Positions 19,561 through 29,885 of a stretch of 33,290 nt of DNA are shown here, one piece after another. This DNA is from Bacteroidales bacterium. GTDB taxonomy: Bacteria; Bacteroidota; Bacteroidia; Bacteroidales; JAIORY01. Position 1 is the stretch's first letter; every line of letters starts with the position of its first letter. The stretch is taken from positions 1 to 33,290 of the forward strand of contig DAOVNY010000004.1 in assembly GCA_030630005.1 (NCBI GenBank), given 5' to 3'. Both the position numbers and the translations under genes were made by a program. The notes beneath the pieces were generated by a model. That model saw only the letters and a list, made by a program, of their open reading frames with translations, was not told the origin of the DNA and ran no database searches.

Positions 19561-20028
19561 TCATCTTACGTTAATGTGATATTTTTTTTGCAATCCGTGT
19601 AAGAAATTACGCAATATCTGATCTTTACATTGGCGATATTGGCTCTGATTTGGCTTACGAAAGAATGCACTTAATTCGTGTTTACTTATGCGAAGATCCA
19701 CCAGATCAAGAATTTCCAGAATATCATGATCTTTCAGGTTTAATGCTATTTTTAATTTTCTAAAAACGATATTATTATTTAGTCGTTTTTCGGGAATAGG
19801 TGGAGGTCCTTCTTTTTTACCGCGTTTATCTATTATCAGACCATTCAGAAAAATTGCCAGTTGCAGGTCATAAAGTCCTTCATACGCAGGATCATCATCT
19901 TTTTTTAACCAATTACTTATCTGTGCTCGTGTTACCTTATAATCGGCTAAGCCAAATATCTCAATCATCTTCGAATCGCTAAAATCGAAAGTGTAACGGA
20001 TACGGCGTAATATGTCGTTATGATTCAT
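19561..20028 (-). CDS. yehS: DUF1456 (YehS-type) protein
   Basis: A 155-residue protein made of two copies of the DUF1456 repeat. The first is NHNDILRRIRYTFDFSDSKMIEIFGLADYKVTRAQISNWLKK (about 2-43) and the second LNNNIVFRKLKIALNLKDHDILEILDLVDLRISKHELSAFFRKP (about 83-126), closing with RQCKDQILRNFLHGL. This matches E. coli YehS in length and order. The biochemical function of the family is, to my knowledge, unknown; the fold looks helix-rich and possibly nucleic-acid-binding. It starts 3 bp after the stop of the beta-barrel gene, so the two are co-transcribed. Confidence 0.9.
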   Translation of the reverse strand: MNHNDILRRIRYTFDFSDSKMIEIFGLADYKVTRAQISNWLKKDDDPAYEGLYDLQLAIFLNGLIIDKRGKKEGPPPIPEKRLNNNIVFRKLKIALNLKDHDILEILDLVDLRISKHELSAFFRKPNQSQYRQCKDQILRNFLHGLQKKYHINVR

Positions 20029-20031
20029 AAT

Positions 20032-20679
20032 TTATATTTTCACTCTAATCATTATTCTAAAATATCTGTTGAAAATTTGATCTCCATAGTCATATAATGA
20101 TGTCACACCAAACTTATATTCCGGTTTTATCATTAATTTATATTTTGATAATGGAATATCTATTCCTAATCCAAATGAAATTCCATAATTCAGATTTGAA
20201 ATATTTGCTTTTCCATCAAACTCATATTCATTATATTCAATTTGATTATTCGCATTGGGCAAATATGTGTGCATAGTGCCTTTTTTTCTTGCTCTTATGT
20301 TTAGGTCTAAAAAAGGACCCGTTTCTACAAATGCTTTTGACTTATTGCCAAAGTTAACTCTTACAGTTAATGGAATAGATACACTATTAATATAATAAGT
20401 TAAATCAGTTGAGTGGGCAAAGTGTCCTTCATACATTATTGTTTTAAATTGACTTGTTTTATTATATTCAAATCCAATAATCAGGTTAACTTTTTTGTCT
20501 GCTGAAAATGCGTGATATGCCCCTATTCCAAATCCAATTCCGTCATTAGTATTATTGTCATTTACATTTGTTTCGTTTAATGAGATGCTAAATTCGTCAA
20601 AAAAGAAAGTACTGTCTCCCTGCCCAAATGTTAATGAATAAGAGAAAATAAATGCCAATATTAAAATCAAGTTTTTCAT
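20032..20679 (-). CDS. Outer-membrane beta-barrel protein (porin-like)
   Basis: A 215-residue exported protein. The signal peptide is MKNLILILAFIFSYSLTFGQ, followed by amphipathic beta strands separated by charged turns, with strand ends such as GIGFGIGAYHAF, GFEYNKTS, SIPLTVRVNFG, YGISFGLGIDIPL and the final YFRIMIRVKI. This is the general form of small eight-stranded outer-membrane barrels common in Bacteroidota. No specific function can be assigned. It is the first gene of a pair with yehS. Its leader carries copy 1 of the dispersed hairpin repeat (20701-20784), which ends 22 bp upstream of the start. Confidence 0.8.
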   Translation of the reverse strand: MKNLILILAFIFSYSLTFGQGDSTFFFDEFSISLNETNVNDNNTNDGIGFGIGAYHAFSADKKVNLIIGFEYNKTSQFKTIMYEGHFAHSTDLTYYINSVSIPLTVRVNFGNKSKAFVETGPFLDLNIRARKKGTMHTYLPNANNQIEYNEYEFDGKANISNLNYGISFGLGIDIPLSKYKLMIKPEYKFGVTSLYDYGDQIFNRYFRIMIRVKI

Positions 20680-20700
20680 TTGTGTGTTTTGGTTGCAGTC

Positions 20701-20784
20701 AACTTCTAAATAATTACTACACTATGCATATTATTTCGCCTTTGTCTATTGTAGTATTTTTTGTTAATACTTGAAATTTCTTTT
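20701..20784 (-). repeat. Dispersed hairpin repeat, copy 1
   Basis: Shares the core ACAAAGGCGAAAT and the flanking inverted arms (TACTACA ... TGTAGTA on the minus strand) with copies at 26046-26128 and 26912-26980 and a partial copy at 22180-22216. It lies just upstream of a minus-strand start codon. Confidence 0.75.
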
Positions 20785-21918: not shown

Positions 21919-22010
21919 ATTTTTTATTCCTCACTCTCTCAATTATTTAACTCTTTTTCCATTCTATACTTAATATCATAATTAATAATAAAATCCAACT
22001 CTTCTCCCTG

Positions 22011-22056
22011 TTAGTGTTTACTGGCGGGGCGGGATCGATTGTGTGGTCGTGCTTTG
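22011..22056. repeat. GC-rich intergenic element A
   Basis: An isolated GC-rich patch in AT-rich DNA with ACTGGCGGGGCGGGAT and then GGTCGTG. It shares the words ACTGGCGGG and GGTCGT, in the same order and orientation, with the element at 24251-24330. It lies between RhuM and BRO-N genes. Confidence 0.5.
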
Positions 22057-22215
22057 CTATTTCATTTTAATATCTGGCATTTCTTTCCCGAATTCATCAT
22101 CAATTAAATGTATTTGTTTTCTTATAATTGAACGTTTTGCAATAACCATATTTAAACAAAAATTCTCAAATTCCGTTTTATTTATTTCGCCTTTGTATAT
22201 TGTAATGTTTTTTGT
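22057..22215 (-). pseudogene. Possible 3' fragment of an unrecognised gene
   Basis: The ORF-track line 22057-22242 overlaps the end of the BRO-N gene in another frame. Its last 45 or so residues (TEFENFCLNM ... DEFGKEMPDIKMK) look like protein rather than noise and end just before the GC-rich element, but there is no start of its own. It may be the tail of a gene whose front was replaced when the BRO-N gene arrived. Family unknown. Confidence 0.3.
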
Positions 22216-23023
22216 TTTCAGGGGCATCAAGATAATTTTCATCTGTACTTACTTTTTTATCTGTCTTTTTTTCAAGTGCATTTTTTGCATCTCCTGCAAT
22301 TTTCCCACCCTCTTTGGCATCCTGTTTTAACTTATTGAAGCCTTGCGAATCATTTGTTTGAGTTATTTCCGTAGTAGCTCTTTCGCCAAGCATAGAGAAT
22401 ATAAGTTCAAGGTCTGTCATATGATCTCTTAAATTCTCTCTTTTTAATTTTTTCAACTCTTTGTATTCACTTGGGGTCATTCCAAAAGTTGCTTTGCTTA
22501 TTTCTGCTGTTAAAATTGCATATTCAATTTTTTCTTTAGCGCCTCTGCTTTTCCATTCATCAGTAAGTTCTTCACGAATTGCAATACCACGCATTCGTTT
22601 TTCAACCCAGTCGGCACTGTAACCTTTTGCCTGATATAAAGCTCTTGTTCGTTTAGTTGCAAGTTCGGGGTCCTCAATCTCCTGCACTCTTTCATATCCT
22701 ACCTTAGCCAGCCATCTTTTAAAAGGTTCTGCTTTAGGTGAGGGAATAGATTGTATTATGCGAAATATACCTTCAGTATTTGCACAATTTATTTTCTGAA
22801 CACCACCGGCAGTTTTTATCGAAAGGGGGGTGGCAATTTGCCCCCACCCTTTGGAAAGTTCTGAATCTCGTCTTCGCATATCCTTAATATACCCTTTAGG
22901 GTTTTTAGAGTCAGTAAGGGCAAAAACAACATCCTCTATAACAAACCACCATTCATTTTTATAAATGATTTTTCTAATCTCTTTTTTTTGAAAAATTGCT
23001 ATTTTTTTATTTTGCTTACTCAT
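22178..23023 (-). CDS. BRO-N domain (phage antirepressor-type) protein
   Basis: A 281-residue protein. The BRO-N domain spans about residues 8-110 (IRKIIYKNEWWFVIEDVVFALTDSKNPKGYIKDMRRRD ... NTEGIFRIIQSIPSPKAEPFKRWLAKVG). The C-terminal part has the run TDLELIFSMLGERATTEI and GGKIAGDAKNALEKKTDKKV typical of bacterial BRO/DinD-like proteins. The family includes phage antirepressors; stand-alone bacterial members have unknown roles. Its natural end is probably near ENYLDAPENKK: the last nine residues (HYNIQRRNK) are read from the partial hairpin repeat, so the tail seems to have been replaced. The first eight codons (MSKQNKKI) and the leader are identical to those of the KilA-N gene upstream. 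Confidence 0.88.
   Translation of the reverse strand: MSKQNKKIAIFQKKEIRKIIYKNEWWFVIEDVVFALTDSKNPKGYIKDMRRRDSELSKGWGQIATPLSIKTAGGVQKINCANTEGIFRIIQSIPSPKAEPFKRWLAKVGYERVQEIEDPELATKRTRALYQAKGYSADWVEKRMRGIAIREELTDEWKSRGAKEKIEYAILTAEISKATFGMTPSEYKELKKLKRENLRDHMTDLELIFSMLGERATTEITQTNDSQGFNKLKQDAKEGGKIAGDAKNALEKKTDKKVSTDENYLDAPENKKHYNIQRRNK
22180..22216 (-). repeat. Dispersed hairpin repeat, partial copy 4
   Basis: On the minus strand ACAAAAAACATTACAATA and CAAAGGCGAAATAA match the left half of copies 1-3; the right arm is absent. It is read as the last codons of the BRO-N gene. Confidence 0.55.
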
Positions 23024-23106
23024 TTCAAATTCCGGCTCTATGATTTTTAATTTTACTATTCATTTGTTTTGGTAACCATTACCTGCGGCATACGATATGA
23101 CCCGTT
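23000..23106 (-). repeat. 107-bp direct repeat, copy 1 (5' module of BRO-N gene)
   Basis: Identical base for base to 23956-24062. It covers the leader and first eight codons of the BRO-N gene. The match stops at the edge of a palindrome (TCGCCT-C-AGGCGA, 23107-23119). Confidence 0.95.
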
Positions 23107-23142: not shown

Positions 23143-23979
23143 TTATTCATTTGATCTCTCATTTAATTTTTTTACTTTTTTATCTTCTAAAAGTATTTTC
23201 ATTTGCTGAATAGCAATTTTATTTAAACGAATTAATCGTTCTTGTTGCGAAAATTCTTCGTTAATAAATACTGAGTTAAGATTTTCAAGATTTGAAAGAC
23301 ATACTAATTGCGAAACATTGGCATAATCACGGATATTGCCTTTCTTATCAGGATTTTCAGTCCGCCACTGTTTTGCTGTTTTCCCGAATAGAGCCATATT
23401 TAAAACATCGGCTTCGGTAGCATATATAAGATTTATTTGTTTTGTATCTAATTCCGGTGGAATAAGATTTTCTTTTATTGCATCAGTATGAATGCGGTAA
23501 TTTATCTTTGCCAAATTTCGTTTTATATCCCAGCCAAGTTGCTTTTGTTCTTCTTCTTTTAAACGCTGAAACTCTTTTATTAGATAAAGTTTAAATTCAA
23601 CCGATATCCACGAAGCAAATTCAAATGCTATATCTTTATGAGCATAAGTTCCACCATAGCGTCCTGCTTTTGATATAATGCCAATTGCATTGGTTTTTTC
23701 TATCCATTGCTTAGGTGTTAATGTAAAACTGTTAAGCCCTGACGATTTTCTAAACCCGTCGAATTCGACGGGTTTAAAATCCGAATTATTAAGACTTTCC
23801 CAAATACCAAGAAACTCAATTGTATTTCTGTTACGTAACCAATTTCTTACCAGATCATCAGTTCTATCGGAATTTTTATAGCGAGCAATATCTGTAATAC
23901 AAATATAATCGTCTTGATTGTTTGTAATTACTGTGATTTCTTCACCCTTGACTTTTATTTTTTTATTTTGCTTACTCAT
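23143..23979 (-). CDS. KilA-N domain protein
   Basis: A 278-residue protein with an N-terminal KilA-N DNA-binding domain (about residues 10-115): YICITDIARYKNSDRTDDLVRNWLRNRNTIEFLGIWE, then GLNSFTLTPKQWIEKTNAIGIISKAGRYGGTYAHKDIAFEFASWISVEFKLYLIKEFQRL. The C-terminal half (WDIKRNLAKINYRIHTDAIKENLIPP ... YATEADVLNMALFGKTAKQWR) is typical of bacterial KilA-N proteins. The family derives from phage and large-virus DNA-binding proteins; the role of chromosomal copies is unclear. The start ATG 23979 lies in the 107-bp repeat shared with the BRO-N gene, so the two genes have the same leader and N-terminal eight residues (MSKQNKKI) but unrelated bodies. Confidence 0.88.
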   Translation of the reverse strand: MSKQNKKIKVKGEEITVITNNQDDYICITDIARYKNSDRTDDLVRNWLRNRNTIEFLGIWESLNNSDFKPVEFDGFRKSSGLNSFTLTPKQWIEKTNAIGIISKAGRYGGTYAHKDIAFEFASWISVEFKLYLIKEFQRLKEEEQKQLGWDIKRNLAKINYRIHTDAIKENLIPPELDTKQINLIYATEADVLNMALFGKTAKQWRTENPDKKGNIRDYANVSQLVCLSNLENLNSVFINEEFSQQERLIRLNKIAIQQMKILLEDKKVKKLNERSNE

Positions 23980-24062
23980 TTCAAATTCCGGCTCTATGAT
24001 TTTTAATTTTACTATTCATTTGTTTTGGTAACCATTACCTGCGGCATACGATATGACCCGTT
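23956..24062 (-). repeat. 107-bp direct repeat, copy 2 (5' module of KilA-N gene)
   Basis: Identical to 23000-23106; see that entry. Beyond 24062 the two copies share nothing obvious. Confidence 0.95.
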
Positions 24063-24087: not shown

Positions 24088-24250
24088 ATAAAAGTTCTTT
24101 GAATAGATAAAATTTAAAGAAAATCCAATGATGAAAACAACCGTAATTGAAAGGCTGAAAAGGAGAGGATACTTTTTTTTCTCAGGGCAATTTCTGAAAT
24201 TTTTTCGGTTTGTATCAAATGAGACACTGCTCAAAATTTCTTTTGTTTGG

Positions 24251-24330
24251 TGAACCGTTTGCCTATGGCGGGATGGTGGGATAGGTGCACTGGCGGGTTA
24301 TTCGGTCGTTAGTCTCCTACGATTAGCTGC
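24251..24330. repeat. GC-rich intergenic element B
   Basis: GC-rich patch with TATGGCGGGATGGTGGGAT, ACTGGCGGG and GGTCGTTAG, sharing ordered words with element A (22011-22056). It lies directly after the DUF2971 stop codon (minus strand), as an end-of-gene element would. Confidence 0.5.
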
Positions 24331-24334
24331 CTTT

Positions 24335-25120
24335 TCATTTTAATATTTCAACTTTAGATTTTATTGGTTTAGGCAATTTGAACTTTGAGCAAATGCTCTC
24401 AATATTTCTAAATTTCCAGTCTGGCATTTCAGGATGACATACGATATCCATCAAATTAAATAAAGACTGAGTTATGTTTAATCTAATGAATTTCGGATTT
24501 TTTTTAGCTACGTTTTTGGGTGTTGCGATTAGAAGACGAAACTCTTTTTCATAATCGTAAGAAACGTCTTTTTTGAAAGCACTATATTTTGGAAGAATAA
24601 CTTTCTCAGAGAGGTCAATAGGATTCAATTTACAGTAGGTAACGCTTCCACAAATGAATTCAAACGTTGGATGGAGTAATGGTTGAATTTCAATGTTAGT
24701 TTTAAAGTAACTTACAAGATCATATGCCCTTGCTTTCATAGCGATGCTATCTTTGTTTGAATAAAGATTCCACATTGCATTAGATTCTCTTGTTGAATTT
24801 ATCCAACAATTAACAAATTGCGTTTCTCTTTGTATTTGAGATTGGATTTCATAGTTCTCAAGAGTACGTTTATTTCTCATGTTTTGAGCATCAGCAAATT
24901 CTTTTGTAATCTTTGGATTTGTTATTGTTGAAATCTTTGCAATGTGTCTCTGAACAATTAATTTTCTGGTTATTCCTTCAAATGGATCATTGTATTGATC
25001 CAGTCTGTTGAAATATAAATTCTTGTCTGAAGCTATGTCAAGTAGCTTATGAAGATCAATGTATCTCCATAAGTAGTCGTCTTTCTTCAATTTGGATTTC
25101 GCTATTTCTTTAAATTTCAT
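24335..25120 (-). CDS. DUF2971 family protein
   Basis: A 261-residue soluble protein with the landmarks of DUF2971: an N-terminal YLWRYIDLHKLLDIASDKNLYFNRLDQYNDPFEG (strand-helix, then F-N-D-P-F-E), a central FVNCWINSTRESNAMWNLYS (the C-W/S...MW.-Y segment) and DYEKEFRLL near residue 205. The function of the family is unknown to me; it is widespread on islands and near defence genes. In this block it sits between the GC-rich element B at its 3' side and the GNAT cassette at its 5' side. ATG 25120 fits the usual start, with no clear promoter box in the 65-bp gap upstream. Confidence 0.85.
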   Translation of the reverse strand: MKFKEIAKSKLKKDDYLWRYIDLHKLLDIASDKNLYFNRLDQYNDPFEGITRKLIVQRHIAKISTITNPKITKEFADAQNMRNKRTLENYEIQSQIQRETQFVNCWINSTRESNAMWNLYSNKDSIAMKARAYDLVSYFKTNIEIQPLLHPTFEFICGSVTYCKLNPIDLSEKVILPKYSAFKKDVSYDYEKEFRLLIATPKNVAKKNPKFIRLNITQSLFNLMDIVCHPEMPDWKFRNIESICSKFKLPKPIKSKVEILK

Positions 25121-25142
25121 ATTAATTGTTGCTTGTTTAAAA

Positions 25143-25167
25143 ACCGTAGATGCTGTGCACTACGGGA
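25143..25167. repeat. Small inverted repeat between DUF2971 and GNAT genes
   Basis: CCGTAG-a-TG ... CA-CTACGG forms a short hairpin around CTGTG. It resembles, in position and in the CACTAC word, the hairpin on the other side of the GNAT gene. Confidence 0.45.
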
Positions 25168-25178
25168 GTTTTATATGC

Positions 25179-25199
25179 TTAGGTGTTACCCACAGTTAT
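25179..25199 (+). repeat. Left inverted repeat of the GNAT cassette
   Basis: TTAGGTGTTACCCACAG followed by TTAT; matches in inverse orientation the sequence at 26034-26054 at 19 of 21 positions. It contains the GNAT stop codon. Confidence 0.75.
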
Positions 25200-26022
25200 T
25201 TAATATTTTTGTTGAGTATTGATATATTCGTTTATAACCTACTGCAAAAGCCAATTTGTTTGAGCTTCCTTTAAGTTTATCAGTCATAAGATAGCACTTT
25301 TTGCTTGAATTTTTTTCTAACAATTTTTTAGTAACACAAGCAAGAAGCGATTTCCCATAACCTTTTTTACGAAACCCTTTTTTTATAAAAATTATGCCGA
25401 GTCGTTCAGAATCAAGAACGGAGCATGAACCTATTAAATTTCCTTGAGCATTTTGAATTACAAAAAGTCGATTATTATAAATTCCCTTTCTAACAATGGG
25501 AGCAATTTCAAATTCACTTTTATTATTCTCTCCATTATACTCTTCAAAATAATAATCAATTCTCATTGAAATTAAAACTTGCAAATCATCTAATTTAGCA
25601 TATCTAATATTTACATGCTCAGATGTGATTTTAGATTCACCATCTATTCTAAAAAAATTTCGCAATTTATTATCATGAAAATTTACTGTAAAATTTAAAT
25701 TTTGAATGTCTTCTAATAAATTATGAGTCCCAGAAAATGCAAAACTTTTAAATTTCTCAAATTCAATTAATTTATTTACTTCTGTTAGTTGTGATGTTAT
25801 CCAATTATTACCAAAGAGATAATATGTATCTCTTGTCCAAACCCCCAAAATCCATGAATCTTTTCCTCCTTTTATACTCCAAGCATCGCAATATTCGAGC
25901 GTTTTATTCTTTATCTTTTGAATTGCATTAATCAAATAAAAATGCTCATATCTTTTATCTGAAATAAGAAAGTCTATTTCTTCTAAAACTTCATCATTTA
26001 ATATCGAGTAATGTTTTATCAT
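25186..26022 (-). CDS. GNAT-family acetyltransferase with extra N-terminal domain (278 aa)
   Basis: The C-terminal half (about residues 140-275) is a GNAT domain: ARYAKLDDLQVLISMRIDYYFEE at its start, the acetyl-CoA loop GIIFIKKGFRKKGYGKSLLACVTKKLLE (R-K-K-G-Y-G), and SSNKLAFAVGYKRI near the end. The first 130 residues form a separate domain (FYLINAIQKI ... WILGVWTRDTYYLFGNNWI) similar in plan to the N-terminal domain of two-domain GNAT proteins. The substrate is unknown. The gene is bracketed by a 21-bp inverted repeat pair: the left copy includes the stop codon and the right copy lies 12 bp before the start. The hairpin repeat copy 2 lies just outside the right repeat. This suggests that gene and repeats move as a unit. 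Confidence 0.82.
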   Translation of the reverse strand: MIKHYSILNDEVLEEIDFLISDKRYEHFYLINAIQKIKNKTLEYCDAWSIKGGKDSWILGVWTRDTYYLFGNNWITSQLTEVNKLIEFEKFKSFAFSGTHNLLEDIQNLNFTVNFHDNKLRNFFRIDGESKITSEHVNIRYAKLDDLQVLISMRIDYYFEEYNGENNKSEFEIAPIVRKGIYNNRLFVIQNAQGNLIGSCSVLDSERLGIIFIKKGFRKKGYGKSLLACVTKKLLEKNSSKKCYLMTDKLKGSSNKLAFAVGYKRIYQYSTKILNNCG

Positions 26023-26033
26023 ATGGCTTCGTT

Positions 26034-26054
26034 ATAATTGTGGGTAACTCCTAA
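26034..26054 (-). repeat. Right inverted repeat of the GNAT cassette
   Basis: Minus strand TTAGGAGTTACCCACAA then TTAT; partner of 25179-25199 (19 of 21 positions). It overlaps the end of hairpin repeat copy 2. Confidence 0.75.
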
Positions 26055-26128
26055 ATATTCACTACACCATGTCCAATATTTTGCCTTTGTCTTTTGTAGT
26101 GTTTTTTGTTAATGCTTAAAATTTCTTT
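26046..26128 (-). repeat. Dispersed hairpin repeat, copy 2
   Basis: Arms CACTACA (26060-26066) and TGTAGTG (26095-26101) enclose the conserved core with TTTGCCTTTGTC on the plus strand. Flanks TAAATATT and TTTTTTGTTAAT are shared with copies 1 and 3. Located just upstream of the GNAT start. Confidence 0.8.
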
Positions 26129-26231
26129 TTATTTGATGAACCTCCATATTCGAGATTTGAATTCCGAAAGTCTTCTTTCATCTGATGTCAAAATTAATGC
26201 AAAATAAAATTGGTTTTTAATGCAGTATTTT

Positions 26232-26247
26232 GATTATGGGCTGGGCT
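26232..26247 (+). repeat. Left inverted repeat of the 208-residue gene
   Basis: GATTATGGGCTGGGCT, starting 2 bp beyond the stop codon of the minus-strand gene; matches inversely the sequence at 26900-26915 at 14 of 16 positions. It is different in sequence from the GNAT pair. Confidence 0.65.
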
Positions 26248-26249
26248 TT

Positions 26250-26876
26250 TTATAATTGTTTTTTAATATTCTTAATTAATTCATGTACTGCAAGTCTATT
26301 TTTTTCCAATGAATCAACAACTTTTTGTAAACTTTCAGCATAAGCAGGTAACATTTCTTGTATTTTATTCCAATAAAAATCTGCTTTATCTTTTTCCCCT
26401 TTATCTAAGTGTGAATTATAAATATTTAGCCAAAATTGGATGTCGTTATCTTTATATTTTGTTTCAGAAAGATTTTCTAAAAAGTTAGAAATATCATTCT
26501 CATTCCATTTTTCAAGGTCTTCCAATTCAAAATATAAATGAACAGCATTAGATTCTGGATAGCTATTTTTCATTAATTCTGTCAAGTTTAAACTGTGCTG
26601 ATTAAGGATGCCTCCTATAATCGAAATATCGATATCATTGTCTTCTTTTAAAGCTTTAAGGATTACTTCAAGAGATTTTTTCATTTCAATTATTGCATTT
26701 AAATAAGTTGAATAAACGCTTACAGCCTTTTCTGCTTTTTCAATCTTTCTAGTAAACATGAGCTTTTTTAAATCTCTATTAAAATCGACTTTTCTATTAA
26801 TTTGATTAAAAACTTCCTTTATAAGAAGTGTAGCAAGAGAACCAGAAAGCAATCCAATAATTATTTTTAAATCCAT
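26250..26876 (-). CDS. Membrane-anchored coiled-coil protein of unknown function
   Basis: I do not recognise this 208-residue protein. It has one N-terminal hydrophobic segment (about residues 4-20, IIIGLLSGSLATLLIKEVF), then a basic stretch and a strongly helical, charged body (KIEKAEKAVSVYSTYLNAIIEMKKSLEVILKAL ... LQKVVDSLEKNRLAVHELIKNIKKQ) that is probably coiled coil, placed in the cytoplasm by the positive-inside rule. No enzyme motif is visible. Like the GNAT gene next to it, it is bracketed by a matched inverted repeat pair, and its leader contains hairpin repeat copy 3. This makes it the second cassette-like unit in a row. Its role cannot be inferred. Confidence 0.7.
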   Translation of the reverse strand: MDLKIIIGLLSGSLATLLIKEVFNQINRKVDFNRDLKKLMFTRKIEKAEKAVSVYSTYLNAIIEMKKSLEVILKALKEDNDIDISIIGGILNQHSLNLTELMKNSYPESNAVHLYFELEDLEKWNENDISNFLENLSETKYKDNDIQFWLNIYNSHLDKGEKDKADFYWNKIQEMLPAYAESLQKVVDSLEKNRLAVHELIKNIKKQL

Positions 26877-26899
26877 AATGTTATCTATTGTTGTTATTT

Positions 26900-26915
26900 A
26901 GCCTTGCCCATAATC
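26900..26915 (-). repeat. Right inverted repeat of the 208-residue gene
   Basis: Minus strand GATTATGGGCAAGGCT, 24 bp upstream of the start; partner of 26232-26247 (14 of 16 positions). It abuts hairpin repeat copy 3. Confidence 0.65.
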
Positions 26916-26980
26916 CTAAATATTCACTACACTATGCCCAATATTTCACCTTTGTCCATTGTAGTGTACTTTGTTAATAT
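26912..26980 (-). repeat. Dispersed hairpin repeat, copy 3
   Basis: Plus strand CTAAATATTCACTACACTAT ... CCTTTGTCCATTGTAGTG ... TTTGTTAAT; same arms and core as copies 1 and 2. Confidence 0.78.
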
Positions 26981-27008
26981 GTTTACATTTAGAAAATAAT
27001 CTCTCATT

Positions 27009-27190
27009 TTTAATTCTTCAAATATACAAAAACATTTTAAATATTTAAATCACCCAAATCATAAATCTAAAATCATAAATCATAAATCCATCAGCCTTTC
27101 TCTCGCAACACAAACCTATCATAAAGCCACAACAGCACAACAGTTCCCATTCCAATTCCGGTAACTACCATCCAGAAATCGTAAGGGTGA
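27009..27190 (-). repeat. Left copy of the direct repeat flanking RhuM 2
   Basis: A 182-bp stretch matching 28298-28536 with about 85-90% identity outside an extra hairpin cluster in the right copy. It contains a promoter-like TATATTTG, a string of CATAAAT repeats and a copy of the last 33 codons of the POT transporter gene. The 396-bp gap 26877-27272 consists of this, hairpin repeat copy 3 and the gene stubs listed here. Confidence 0.85.
27091..27189 (-). pseudogene. Duplicated 3' end of the POT transporter gene
   Basis: Encodes HPYDFWMVVTGIGMGTVV and on to LYDRFVLREKG plus stop, against ...LYDRFVLIDKG in the full gene at 28437. Four of the six differing codons are synonymous; only the tail differs in sequence (RE against ID). 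Its upstream side joins directly to an HsdR-like stub. Confidence 0.85.
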
Positions 27191-27283
27191 AATATCAGGT
27201 GCATAAATATACTGATAGCCCAAACGCTCCAATAATTCTATTGCAAATTTTTCTCTTGTATTTTCGGTTATTCTATTGCTTAT
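27188..27283 (-). pseudogene. 5' stub of a type I restriction HsdR-like gene
   Basis: Overlapping the end of RhuM 2 in another frame, the minus strand reads ITENTREKFAIELLERLG then YQYIYAPDI. This is the start of type I restriction endonuclease R subunits (hydrophilic TREKFAIE followed by LGYxYxYxPDI). After about 32 codons it joins the transporter tail copy. No ATG is visible; AAGATAAGC at the expected place may be a lost start codon. RhuM genes are known to lie between hsdM/hsdS and hsdR genes, which fits. Confidence 0.65.
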
Positions 27284-28295
27284 CTTTTTTACCGGTTATT
27301 CGTTTAATTTCCCTGTCAAAATCTGAGATATAATTTTTATCCTGTATTACTCTATATTTATCATATTCAGCTTCTGCTTTAATTTTGGCTTCTAATGCTG
27401 AAATCTTTCCTTTATCAAGCAAGATCGGATAATCTGATAATTCTAAAAATTTATCCAAAAACAACACCCAATCTTTCATATTCATCACAACACCACGGTT
27501 TGCCCTATTTTCGGCAAGGTCTAAGTAGGCAGTAACTATTCTTTCGAGTTGCTTAAGGTGTTGTTCTTCCAAATAATTTTTTGCAATAGTCGCATCAGAT
27601 TTTAATATTTTTCCTTCTGGTGAGTTTCCCCAAGATTTTAGACCCATATATATTTTTTCTGCATCGGCTTCGGTATAAATAATTTCTGCAGCTGTTTTCC
27701 CTTGAATAGCCCAATGCAACTTATTTTGTGTTGTTGCAAAAAAATCTTTGGTAATAAAAGCCCCACTATCATAATCAGCAGAGAGTGCGTAGATGTCAGT
27801 AATTTTCTGATAAAACCTCCTTTCGCTTAATCTGATTTCTCGGATTCGCTCCAACATTTCGTCAAAATAATCTTTACCGAAATGTCTAATTTGTTTCAAA
27901 CGCTCATCATCCATAGCAAAACCTTTGATGATATATTCGTGCAAAATTTCTGTTGCCCACTTTCTAAACTCTGTTGCCCTATGTGAATTTACCCGGTAGC
28001 CAATAGCGGTAATGGCTCTTAGATTGTAGTATTTTGTATTGTAGGTTTTACCGTCTTGGGCAGTATGTGTAAAATTTGCACATACTGAATTTTTATCCAA
28101 TTCACCTTCATTAAAAACATTTTTTAGATGTTTAGTAATAACACTTCTGTCTTTTTCAAAAAGCTCCGCGATTTTCTTTTGTGTAAGCCATAAAGTATCG
28201 TTCTGAAAAAAGACATCTATATTTACTTTGCCTGTGGCTGTTTGAAAAATAACGAAGTTTGAGAATTTTTCTAATTGTTTGTTTTTATCTTTCAT
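27273..28295 (-). CDS. RhuM-family (virulence RhuM) protein, second copy
   Basis: A 340-residue paralogue of 20887-21918 with all landmarks: HTH WLTQKKIAELFEKDRSVITKHLKNVFNEGEL, core YYNLRAITAIGYRVNSHRATEFRKWATEILHEYIIKGF, IRLSERRFYQKITDIYALSADY and DFFATTQNKLHWAIQGKTAAEII. By eye the two are about half identical. Here the link to type I restriction is visible, since a truncated hsdR-like reading frame starts in its last codons. The gene lies between two direct repeats (27009-27190 and 28298-28536) that contain its promoter region and a piece of the neighbouring transporter gene. It therefore looks like part of a lost restriction locus left at the transporter 3' end. Function unknown. Confidence 0.9.
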   Translation of the reverse strand: MKDKNKQLEKFSNFVIFQTATGKVNIDVFFQNDTLWLTQKKIAELFEKDRSVITKHLKNVFNEGELDKNSVCANFTHTAQDGKTYNTKYYNLRAITAIGYRVNSHRATEFRKWATEILHEYIIKGFAMDDERLKQIRHFGKDYFDEMLERIREIRLSERRFYQKITDIYALSADYDSGAFITKDFFATTQNKLHWAIQGKTAAEIIYTEADAEKIYMGLKSWGNSPEGKILKSDATIAKNYLEEQHLKQLERIVTAYLDLAENRANRGVVMNMKDWVLFLDKFLELSDYPILLDKGKISALEAKIKAEAEYDKYRVIQDKNYISDFDREIKRITGKKDKQ

Positions 28296-28307
28296 AATTT
28301 AATTCCT

Positions 28308-28315
28308 CAAATATA
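28308..28315 (-). promoter_or_regulatory. Candidate -7 box for RhuM 2
   Basis: Minus strand TATATTTG, 13 bp before ATG 28295, which would give an almost leaderless message. The same box is present in the left repeat (27019-27026), where it faces the 208-residue gene. Confidence 0.4.
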
Positions 28316-28356
28316 CAAAAACATTTTAAATATTAAATTCCCCAAATCATAAATGC

Positions 28357-28422: not shown

Positions 28423-28436
28423 GGATCATAAATCCA

Positions 28437-29885
28437 TCAGCCTTTATCTATCAGCACAAACCTATCATAAAGCCACAACAGTACAACAGTTCCCATTCCA
28501 ATTCCTGTAACTACCATCCAAAAATCGTAAGGGTGATAGGTGTTCCATAGGTGGTTAGATAATTCGGGAATGCTCATATTTAATTTTGTGGCGGCGGTGT
28601 TTACAAAATCGTTTTGAGTAAAATTATCTGATATCTCCGGTATGTTCAATCCTCTTGCTTCAACTTCGGTGCGGAGTAATGATATTTTGTCAGACATACG
28701 TCCGTAAACATCTCCCGAAATTATTCCTGCAAAAAAATTGCCTCCCGCCATCGGCAAAAAATAACATCCCATATAAAGAGCCACTTTGTCTTTAGGGGCA
28801 ATCCTGCCAATGTATTCGAGTATCTTGGGAGAGCTTACCATTTCACCAATCCCGAAAATAAAAATTGTAAGAAACAAATAAAACGGGTTGCGGGTTACAA
28901 ACCATAAACCAATTCCTATGGCGGAAATCAAAAAACCGGATATCATGGTGTTGAGTGGTTTGTATTTCATGACAATGGTAGAAACAGTAATCTGGAAAAT
29001 TACAATGTACAGAGCATCAATATTAACAAGCATCTCGGGTGAAATAGTTCCGTTGTCGTTTCCAATGGCGGAGGCAAGGGCAGGGGAGATGTTTGCAATA
29101 GCATTGTAAATTACTGATGTGTCTATCCATTGTTCGATAAAAACCGGCAGAGTGTAAAACAACTGATTGTACATTGTCCAGAAACCAATTATAATTATCA
29201 GAAACAATAAAAGCTTTATGTCTTTTAAAGCAGAAAAGATGTTTTTAAAGATAGTGACCATTGACTTTCCGAGAGCTTCGGTATTTGGTTTTCTTTCGGG
29301 TTCTTTAAAGAAGAAAATAACAAGAATCATATTTATTCCAATCACCACCGAAGACATCACAAAAACAAAAAACCAGTCCACTTCACGGAGTTTGGATGCG
29401 AATATTGGTCCGATAAAAGCACCAATATTTACTATCATGTAAAATATCCCGAAACCAATAGATGCTGTTTTGTCGTTTGTTGTTTTTGCAATAGTTGCCG
29501 AGATTACAGGTTTAAAAAGCCCGGCTCCAACGGCAAGATATAAAAAGACAAACCACATTGATGTGTAAGTCTTAAATAATCCCATCATCAGGTAACCGCT
29601 CGACAGAATTATATATGCGATAATAAGTACTTTTTTGTATCCGTATTTGTCGGCAATAGCACCGGTAATTACGGGTAGGAAATACAAAACGGCAACTACT
29701 GTTCCCATCAGATAACCTTTTTGTACTTGGGTAAATCCCAATGCTCCGGTATCTTTTGAGGCGGTCAGATAAATTGCCAAAACCATAAATAATCCATACC
29801 ACGCCCAGCGTTCGAATAACTCCATTGTGTTTGCTACCCAAAAAGTACGGGGAAATTTCTTAAAAGTGTGTGAAAGTCTGCTCAT
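28437..29885 (-). CDS. POT/PTR-type MFS transporter
   Basis: A 482-residue membrane protein with about 12-14 helices. The N-terminal ELFERWAWYGL corresponds to the E-x-x-E-R-x-x-Y-Y proton-coupling motif region of proton-dependent oligopeptide transporters, and GAGLFKPVISATIAKT matches their G-x-G-x-F/L-K-P-x-I-S motif. GAIADKYGYKKVLI is the MFS loop motif. It probably imports peptides or related small molecules with protons, although substrate choice in divergent members is hard to call. It is 19 bp from the HhH gene upstream and likely shares its transcript. Its 3' end is the right boundary of the accessory block, and a copy of its last 33 codons lies 1.3 kb away. Confidence 0.88.
   Translation of the reverse strand: MSRLSHTFKKFPRTFWVANTMELFERWAWYGLFMVLAIYLTASKDTGALGFTQVQKGYLMGTVVAVLYFLPVITGAIADKYGYKKVLIIAYIILSSGYLMMGLFKTYTSMWFVFLYLAVGAGLFKPVISATIAKTTNDKTASIGFGIFYMIVNIGAFIGPIFASKLREVDWFFVFVMSSVVIGINMILVIFFFKEPERKPNTEALGKSMVTIFKNIFSALKDIKLLLFLIIIIGFWTMYNQLFYTLPVFIEQWIDTSVIYNAIANISPALASAIGNDNGTISPEMLVNIDALYIVIFQITVSTIVMKYKPLNTMISGFLISAIGIGLWFVTRNPFYLFLTIFIFGIGEMVSSPKILEYIGRIAPKDKVALYMGCYFLPMAGGNFFAGIISGDVYGRMSDKISLLRTEVEARGLNIPEISDNFTQNDFVNTAATKLNMSIPELSNHLWNTYHPYDFWMVVTGIGMGTVVLLWLYDRFVLIDKG

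Follow-up and report, generated by a model that had tools for sequence, protein, structure and literature searches.

Gene cassettes in a Bacteroidales genome and a candidate integron-like capture system whose integrase lacks the IntI-specific insertion

The attC sites of integrons are recognised as folded single strands with extrahelical bases, and clusters of at least two such canonical attC sites without an IntI, as found by IntegronFinder with its attC covariance model, are known as CALINs. Xer proteins act at dif sites and are not known to have an attI site or a cassette array. IntI itself is defined by a further domain close to patch III (Messier and Roy 2001, cited by PMC9668308); a reverse-orientation IntI in Spirochaetota is mentioned in the same paper. 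According to the IntegronFinder 2 census (PMC9024848), the only complete integron of the Bacteroidetes is that of Salinibacter ruber, all else being integrase-only elements, and the Firmicutes have a single complete integron.

The window analysed here is a stretch of 33,290 nucleotides, contig 180 of a 2.26-Mb Bacteroidales genome (231 contigs, 85%-complete; its relatives and promoter type agree with this order), in which an earlier note had pointed out two neighbouring genes, each bracketed by its own matched inverted repeat. I propose, with a probability of roughly 85%, that both genes are cassettes and belong to an integron-like capture system with a tyrosine integrase that lacks the IntI-specific insertion. 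For want of this insertion the system is not an integron by the accepted definition, yet it appears to work like one. It is likely to be novel, as the note had suspected: the literature searched, with preprints and most subscription papers outside it, holds no account of such a system.

Two genes with matched ends and the platform ahead of them

The cargo of the first unit is a GNAT acetyltransferase gene (25186-26022, minus strand). The inverse pair placed around it in the note, 25179-25199 and 26034-26054, is present with 19/21 identical bases, and it is the sole inverse 21-mer pair with at least 18 matches between positions 20,000 and 29,000 at a spacing of 400-3000 bp. Read on the minus strand, the unit runs (hairpin..TTTAGGA)GTTACCCACA-A-TTAT..gene..ATAA-C-TGTGGGTAAC(ACCTAAGCATATAAAACTCCCGTAG..CTACGG..), and its ends consist of ten paired bases, one fixed mismatch (A:G) and an A/T-rich match. 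The outer 10 bp are GTT plus seven gene-specific bases in inverse match. The matched ends of the note are real; the true unit, in place of the extent it gave, is 10 bp plus an A/T-rich tail. The 5' box, GTTACCCACA (then A, then TTAT), lies at 26039-26048 and the 3' box, TGTGGGTAAC, at 25185-25194, both on the minus strand. The left repeat had been said to touch the stop codon of the GNAT gene, and this adjacency holds, but the wording is too weak, as the 3' box overlaps the stop (..TGT GGG TAA C).

Pairs were scored over GTT + 7 bases, one skipped position and 3 further bases against an AAC-anchored downstream partner. By this rule the GNAT pair scores 10/10, which none of the swapped ends reached (0/34), and in 10 shuffled windows no pair reached 10/10 together with the A/G mismatch. 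Past the 3' box follows an attC-like remainder, ACCTAAGCATATAAAACTCCCGTAGTGC..GCATCTACGGTTTTTAAACAAGC (25131-25184, minus strand), which is decayed in the window (DNA fold z -1.4); near-identical intact versions follow box ends on contigs C83 and C184 of the assembly, with z of -3.9 and -5.6. Among 295 genomes searched in the order there is one relative of the GNAT gene, a distant one with 30% identity, and the relative in locus L258 is bracketed by another rule-obeying pair, GTTAGCCAAAATTT or GTTAGCCACAATTT / AAACTGTGGCTAAC.

The second unit, cassette A, carries a gene for 208 amino acids (26250-26876, minus strand) with no Pfam family above cut-off and no relative in the other 294 of the 295 genomes. 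Its 3' matched end, AAGCCCAGCCCATAAT, lies at 26233-26248 and its 5' matched end, (A)TTATGGGC-A-AGGCT, at 26900-26913 (both minus strand). This second pair is present as described, with the qualification that the core G is lost and that the core reads ATT/AAT where GTT/AAC is expected. A cassette in L173 carries the same end with an intact GTT (GTTATGGGCAAGGC .. GCCCAGCCCATAAC), of which the end of cassette A is a degenerate copy.

Outside both units lies the hairpin that the note had described as shared. In a sequence search of the genome this repeat has about 13 copies, the good ones ending in TTTAGGAGTT, after which gene-specific sequence begins. The shared hairpin is the attI-like site of an integron-like platform, with a leader ORF and a promoter that is kept in one of the described copies, and is not a part of each cassette. 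Ahead of cassette A, on the minus strand, there is a putative Pc-like promoter at 27019-27033 (..TTTTTGTATATTTG, with the Bacteroidota -7 box TAnnTTTG), which most platform copies retain, then a leader ORF within the attI-like region at 26927-27007 (MRDYFLNVNILTKYTTMDKGEILGIV, then stop), and the hairpin at 26925-26966 (DNA fold z -2.8 for 26895-26975). The TAnnTTTG element is presumably a promoter, given what is established for promoters of Bacteroidota; platforms of the window's type conserve this box between the integrase stop and attI. Many platform copies, though not all, have a related leader ORF (MKNYLLNTKTLLINILTKHTTTDKGEIMRVV, then stop) of about 26-32 codons between the promoter and the attI core, and in the copies in L004-L126 the ORF ends just ahead of an AGGAG motif and its frame is broken in several cases. 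The leader could provide translational coupling to cassette genes without a ribosome site of their own.

A second attI-like copy (26049-26129, minus strand; hairpin 26060-26101) has no promoter and ends in TTTAGGA, directly followed by GTT. A third (20701-20784, minus strand; hairpin 20715-20756) is followed by GTTGACTGCA (20694-20703) and a gene at 20032-20679, and no matching 3' end was detected for it. At 28308-28322 (minus strand) the platform promoter is fused directly to a RhuM gene (27273-28295), the attI part being lost. The extended platform, consisting of an integrase tail, the promoter-like TTTTTATACATTTG, the leader ORF and the hairpin, is multi-copy also in the congener G001 and in G051, and occurs in 8/393 genomes of the order. 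Over the window's genome and its relatives, 8/35 platform copies score at least 9 (9-10), against 4/1190 swapped-end controls. For most attI copies in the window's genus no 3' partner was detected, the partnerless copies being truncated, decayed or located at contig ends.

A promoter, a leader ORF and an AGGAG motif ahead of genes would also be expected of a regulatory leader, an attenuator of operons, with the flanks being terminators or chance sequence. However, the swapped-end and shuffle controls, together with the exact GTT boundaries of homology described below, point to recombination, and the leader frame is broken in several copies, so that I consider an attenuator very improbable. The note's other suggestion, gene-carrying miniature elements, fares no better. 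Insertion-sequence or REP-like elements with genes between their terminal inverted repeats would likewise be dispersed, with inverted matches at their termini and a hairpin repeat beside each unit. The ends of such elements are constant, whereas the ends observed here vary from gene to gene; moreover, the conserved part is one-sided and continues into integrase coding sequence, and tandem arrays share sites. Miniature elements are therefore a most unlikely source of these repeats, and a cassette system remains the preferred reading.

The linked integrase and its cassettes in other genomes

The note had seen no integrase in view. This is true of the window, and for the intact form also of the genome, in whose 85%-complete assembly no intact linked integrase was found; however, remnants abut the repeats elsewhere in the genome. 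These remnants are decayed 3'-terminal parts of a gene for a tyrosine integrase (..YIQELLGHSSSKTTEIYTHVANKHLQKIKNPLDNLDI, then stop), located upstream of the platform on C184 and in relatives. A TIGR02249 search of the window's genome returned only XerC/XerD-like genes and two short remnants and no canonical IntI, and an Rfam search of the window gave one tRNA and no other match. Intact linked integrases are present in relatives of this genome. G098, of the same order, has an open 486-aa integrase (L266), followed by the same promoter, leader and hairpin as in the window's platform and then by a cassette (GTTGTGTGGCATAA, gene, TTACGCCACACAAC) that obeys the rule 10/10 with the same mismatch. 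Two further candidates were rejected: the candidate integrase of G051 (L070) lies beside an IS91-type transposase and not a platform, and the related integrase of G054 (L069) has no recognisable attI before its contig ends.

GTDB species genomes were searched with the C-terminus of the integrase, which yielded 80 loci, 65 of them with enough downstream sequence. Within 260 nt past the integrase stop a matched-end cassette starts in 34/65 loci, as compared to 3/280 upstream control windows, and 31 of these 34 linked cassettes have the A/G mismatch at position 8. The spacing between integrase and first cassette is fixed: the GTT follows the stop at about 105 nt, mostly 101-106, over a range of about 65-250, and the attI ends are similar to each other. 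Multi-cassette arrays that obey the rule were found in Flavobacterium, Halpernia, Brumimicrobium and Paenibacillus, and L173 holds an array of three; these are tandem cassettes of ORF and attC-like site, with complementary R boxes around GTT/AAC and with inter-cassette sites of about 110-125 bp that contain inner stems. Lone first cassettes were observed in assemblies of Nitrospirae, Aminicenantes and Micrarchaeota. In line with the note's proposal of integron-like cassettes that carry their own half-sites, unrelated genes sit between gene-specific matched pairs in many genomes. Another 30 Bacteroidia integrase loci, sampled separately and with 1.5 kb downstream only, gave a partner in 6/22 (0/30 in controls), and most of those without one have, about 100 nt past the stop, an attI end of similar sequence such as ..TATAAACAAGTT. 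Loci L285-L314 are in contig orientation and were parsed on both strands.

The matched part is longer than in integron cassettes, as stated in the note. Downstream of the integrase, exact pairs up to GTT+7 number 79 versus 21 in shuffles (upstream 30 vs. 36), and at GTT+8, where the mismatch is forced, the excess is gone (9 vs. 7). In other classes of the phylum, arrays with a canonical IntI show their excess at GTT+4 to +6, and it is nearly gone at +7 (6 vs. 3.7). As the GTT/AAC pattern is strand-symmetric, pair counts on the reverse strand are uninformative. The boxes do not follow the 7-bp R box GTTRRRY, with GTTACCC, GTTATGG and GTTAGCA among them, and some do fit it. Extended matches also occur outside this system: by eye, the match of aadB in a class 1 integron spans 12 bp.

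The catalytic residues R, K, HxxR, H and Y are invariant in 23 aligned integrases. From the R of the catalytic GLR to HxLRH the spacing is 91-93 residues in 43/43 measurable array-linked integrases, 133 in IntI and 95-98 in XerC/D. All 10 scanned array-linked integrases stay under the TIGR02249 cut-off and lack model positions ~180-240, the IntI-specific additional domain being absent, and they also score below the cut-offs of the XerC and XerD models. NF040815 is matched by 10/10, of which 6 pass its cut-off (XerA_Arch); the NCBIfam name of this model is 'site-specific tyrosine recombinase/integron integrase', and with 6/10 above a XerA cut-off the database names evidently lump integron-like enzymes together with XerA-like ones. 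By sequence and by fold the closest matches are IntI4 and XerA, and the best structural match is the integron integrase IntI4 (structure model with mean pLDDT 82, pTM 0.51). In the tree, IntI falls inside the array-linked integrases with 99/96 support; an AU test does not reject the one-clade alternative (p 0.185), and for this reason I do not claim an origin of IntI within them. Close relatives of the integrase (E <= 1e-60) were found in 165/395 sampled Bacteroidia genomes. Canonical IntI occurs in 107 genomes of the phylum at the same E value and exceeds the TIGR02249 cut-off in 105 of 396; only one IntI-positive genome lies within Bacteroidia.

Homology between shared copies of a cassette begins exactly at the GTT. 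Flavobacterium cheongpyeongense and F. denitrificans have a cassette in common whose ~85% identity starts exactly there, the preceding sites being different. A plasmid-borne blaVEB-3 lies behind a remnant of the array-linked integrase type (..VKSPFDDL, then stop), with its cassette boundary at GTTAGCGGTAATTT. The blaVEB of a class 1 integron shares sequence from the boundary G of this plasmid copy (query position 28), ends in AAAAAACTACCGCTAAC and obeys the 10-bp + A/G rule. Behind such an integrase remnant and among class 1 integron cassettes, blaVEB has an identical boundary. The blaVEB-3 plasmids come from Klebsiella michiganensis and Citrobacter freundii (L261 and L265), and the remnant there retains an attI-like region. 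A 135-bp 'Re' repeat with a promoter has reportedly been described around blaVEB-1, and I presume that it may equal the attI region of this platform. Plasmid pHH1107 (L259, 4004-6190) has, directly before tet(X3), a remnant of the array-linked integrase (under the annotation tpnF) with a TAnnTTTG promoter and attI-like sequence; an attC-like site comes after the gene. The two boxes, GTTATGTGCCATTTTT and GTTAGTAGCCGTTTTT, agree only in part, and the status of tet(X3) as a cassette is therefore based on its position and the following attC-like site, not on the box rule.

Alternatively, all of these could be a CALIN, with ordinary integron cassettes that a canonical IntI moves from elsewhere in the genome or moved before it was lost, and the linked integrase could be a mere bystander. 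The attC-like sites, the VEB cassette in class 1 integrons and the canonical IntI in other classes of the phylum (those 105/396 genomes) agree with this, and CALINs are a known result of integrase loss (PMC8618304). However, it does not account for an integrase that is linked to the first cassette at a fixed distance and lacks the IntI insertion (R-to-HxLRH spacing of 91-93 residues in 43/43, against 133 in IntI), the window's class has just one IntI-positive genome, and the end rule, GTT+7 and then a mismatch, is unlike that of canonical arrays. I regard a bystander integrase as unlikely, and prefer one that serves its own cassettes.

Apparent decay and reworking in the window's genome

The cassette system in the window's genome looks decayed, with ~13 solo promoter/attI copies, some of them with integrase remnants. 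Of the platforms in the window, one has promoter and leader and has lost the core G, one is promoterless, one partnerless and one fused to RhuM. The 3' end of the MFS transporter gene is present twice, over 112 bp and with 94% identity, on either side of the RhuM gene: at 28425-28536, and as a copy just upstream of the platform at 27079-27190 (minus strand). The congener G001 also has the MFS 3' end followed by platform and RhuM (contig C286, L109), and the platform here therefore appears to be older than the split of the two and to have been reworked since.

For the solo platforms, left edges were compared over L006, L008, L012, L013/L015, L063, L064, L113 and L118-L124. In about 12/18 distinct copies they lie 10-34 nt before the end of integrase homology, and the remaining ones retain at least 60 nt of it, one via an indel. 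This clustering suggests that platforms spread as defined units. Core-like GTTAGAT/ATTAGAT sequences are found near the left edges.

Other repeats of the window are mentioned here for completeness. Identical 107-bp direct repeats at 23000-23106 and 23956-24062, which contain TACCTGCGGCATACGATATGACCCGTT, sit just upstream of a Bro-N gene (22178-23023) and a KilA-N gene (23143-23979), and are possibly another class of cassette-like flanks. Stretches at 22000-22060 and 24230-24340, located after minus-strand genes, are attC-like and rich in GGCGGG / CCCGCC and TAACG / CGTTAG motifs; they resemble the type between cassettes in other Bacteroidota.

Proposed mechanism and comparison with known systems

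In the mechanism proposed here, a tyrosine integrase without the IntI insertion would be encoded in the direction of the cassettes, followed at ~105 nt past its stop by an attI-like site with the recombination core G^TT and, at least in the window's own platform type, by a promoter in the gap between the two. Cassettes would be circles, the joined ends of which would form a foldable site with 10-bp boxes (NNNNNNNAAC / GTTNNNNNNN) matched within each gene's own pair, one constant mismatched position beside them, an A/T-rich outer match and an inner hairpin. A circle opened by insertion at the GTT would leave each gene bracketed by its own box pair. I infer that the array-linked integrase catalyses this recombination; a folded single strand would probably be its substrate, although the folding predicted for the window's own site is weak (z -1.4), and the extended boxes may substitute for the contacts of the missing IntI domain. 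The case for recombination is comparative throughout.

If the integrase recombines cassettes, the IntI-specific domain, which has been called necessary for integron recombination, would be dispensable for cassette capture, and the mechanism could be dissected by comparison. There would also be a large unseen reservoir of mobile genes, with remnants of the system directly before tet(X3) and blaVEB-3 on plasmids. Relatives of the integrase are present in 165/395 Bacteroidia genomes, though published surveys found almost no integrons in this class; where loci were examined, a cassette was detected behind about every second integrase. More tentatively, and I hold this to be rather doubtful, the system may be a second, older type of integron. 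Across bacteria and in some archaeal MAGs, integrases without the insertion would already have run arrays of attI and cassettes; IntI would have arisen within these integrases by gaining its insertion, clinical integrons would have been seeded by them with cassettes such as blaVEB, and promoter-attI segments whose left edge lies in the final integrase codons would later have spread solo in some genomes.

Among described systems, integrons come closest, with a tyrosine integrase beside attI, tandem and mostly one-gene cassettes in a single orientation, the core G^TT and attC-like inverted sites of ~60-125 bp; the blaVEB cassette is common to class 1 integrons and the present system, and IntI4 is the best structural match of its integrase. 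In contrast to integrons, the integrase here lacks the IntI insertion (~40 residues) and falls under the TIGR02249 cut-off, it points in the cassette direction with attI past its stop codon, and the matched cassette ends extend over GTT+7, up to a fixed mismatch, in place of GTTRRRY. The window's genome resembles a CALIN in having cassettes without an intact integrase, but differs in its solo attI/promoter copies, some with integrase remnants, at ~13 loci. The integrons of Spirochaetota likewise have an integrase orientation that is reversed relative to most integrons, but their integrases are IntI proper. Finally, XerA, XerC, XerD and the NF040815 recombinases share the lack of the IntI insertion, whereas the array-linked integrases have an N-terminal extension and the K/QSPxDxL C-terminus that they have in common with IntI.
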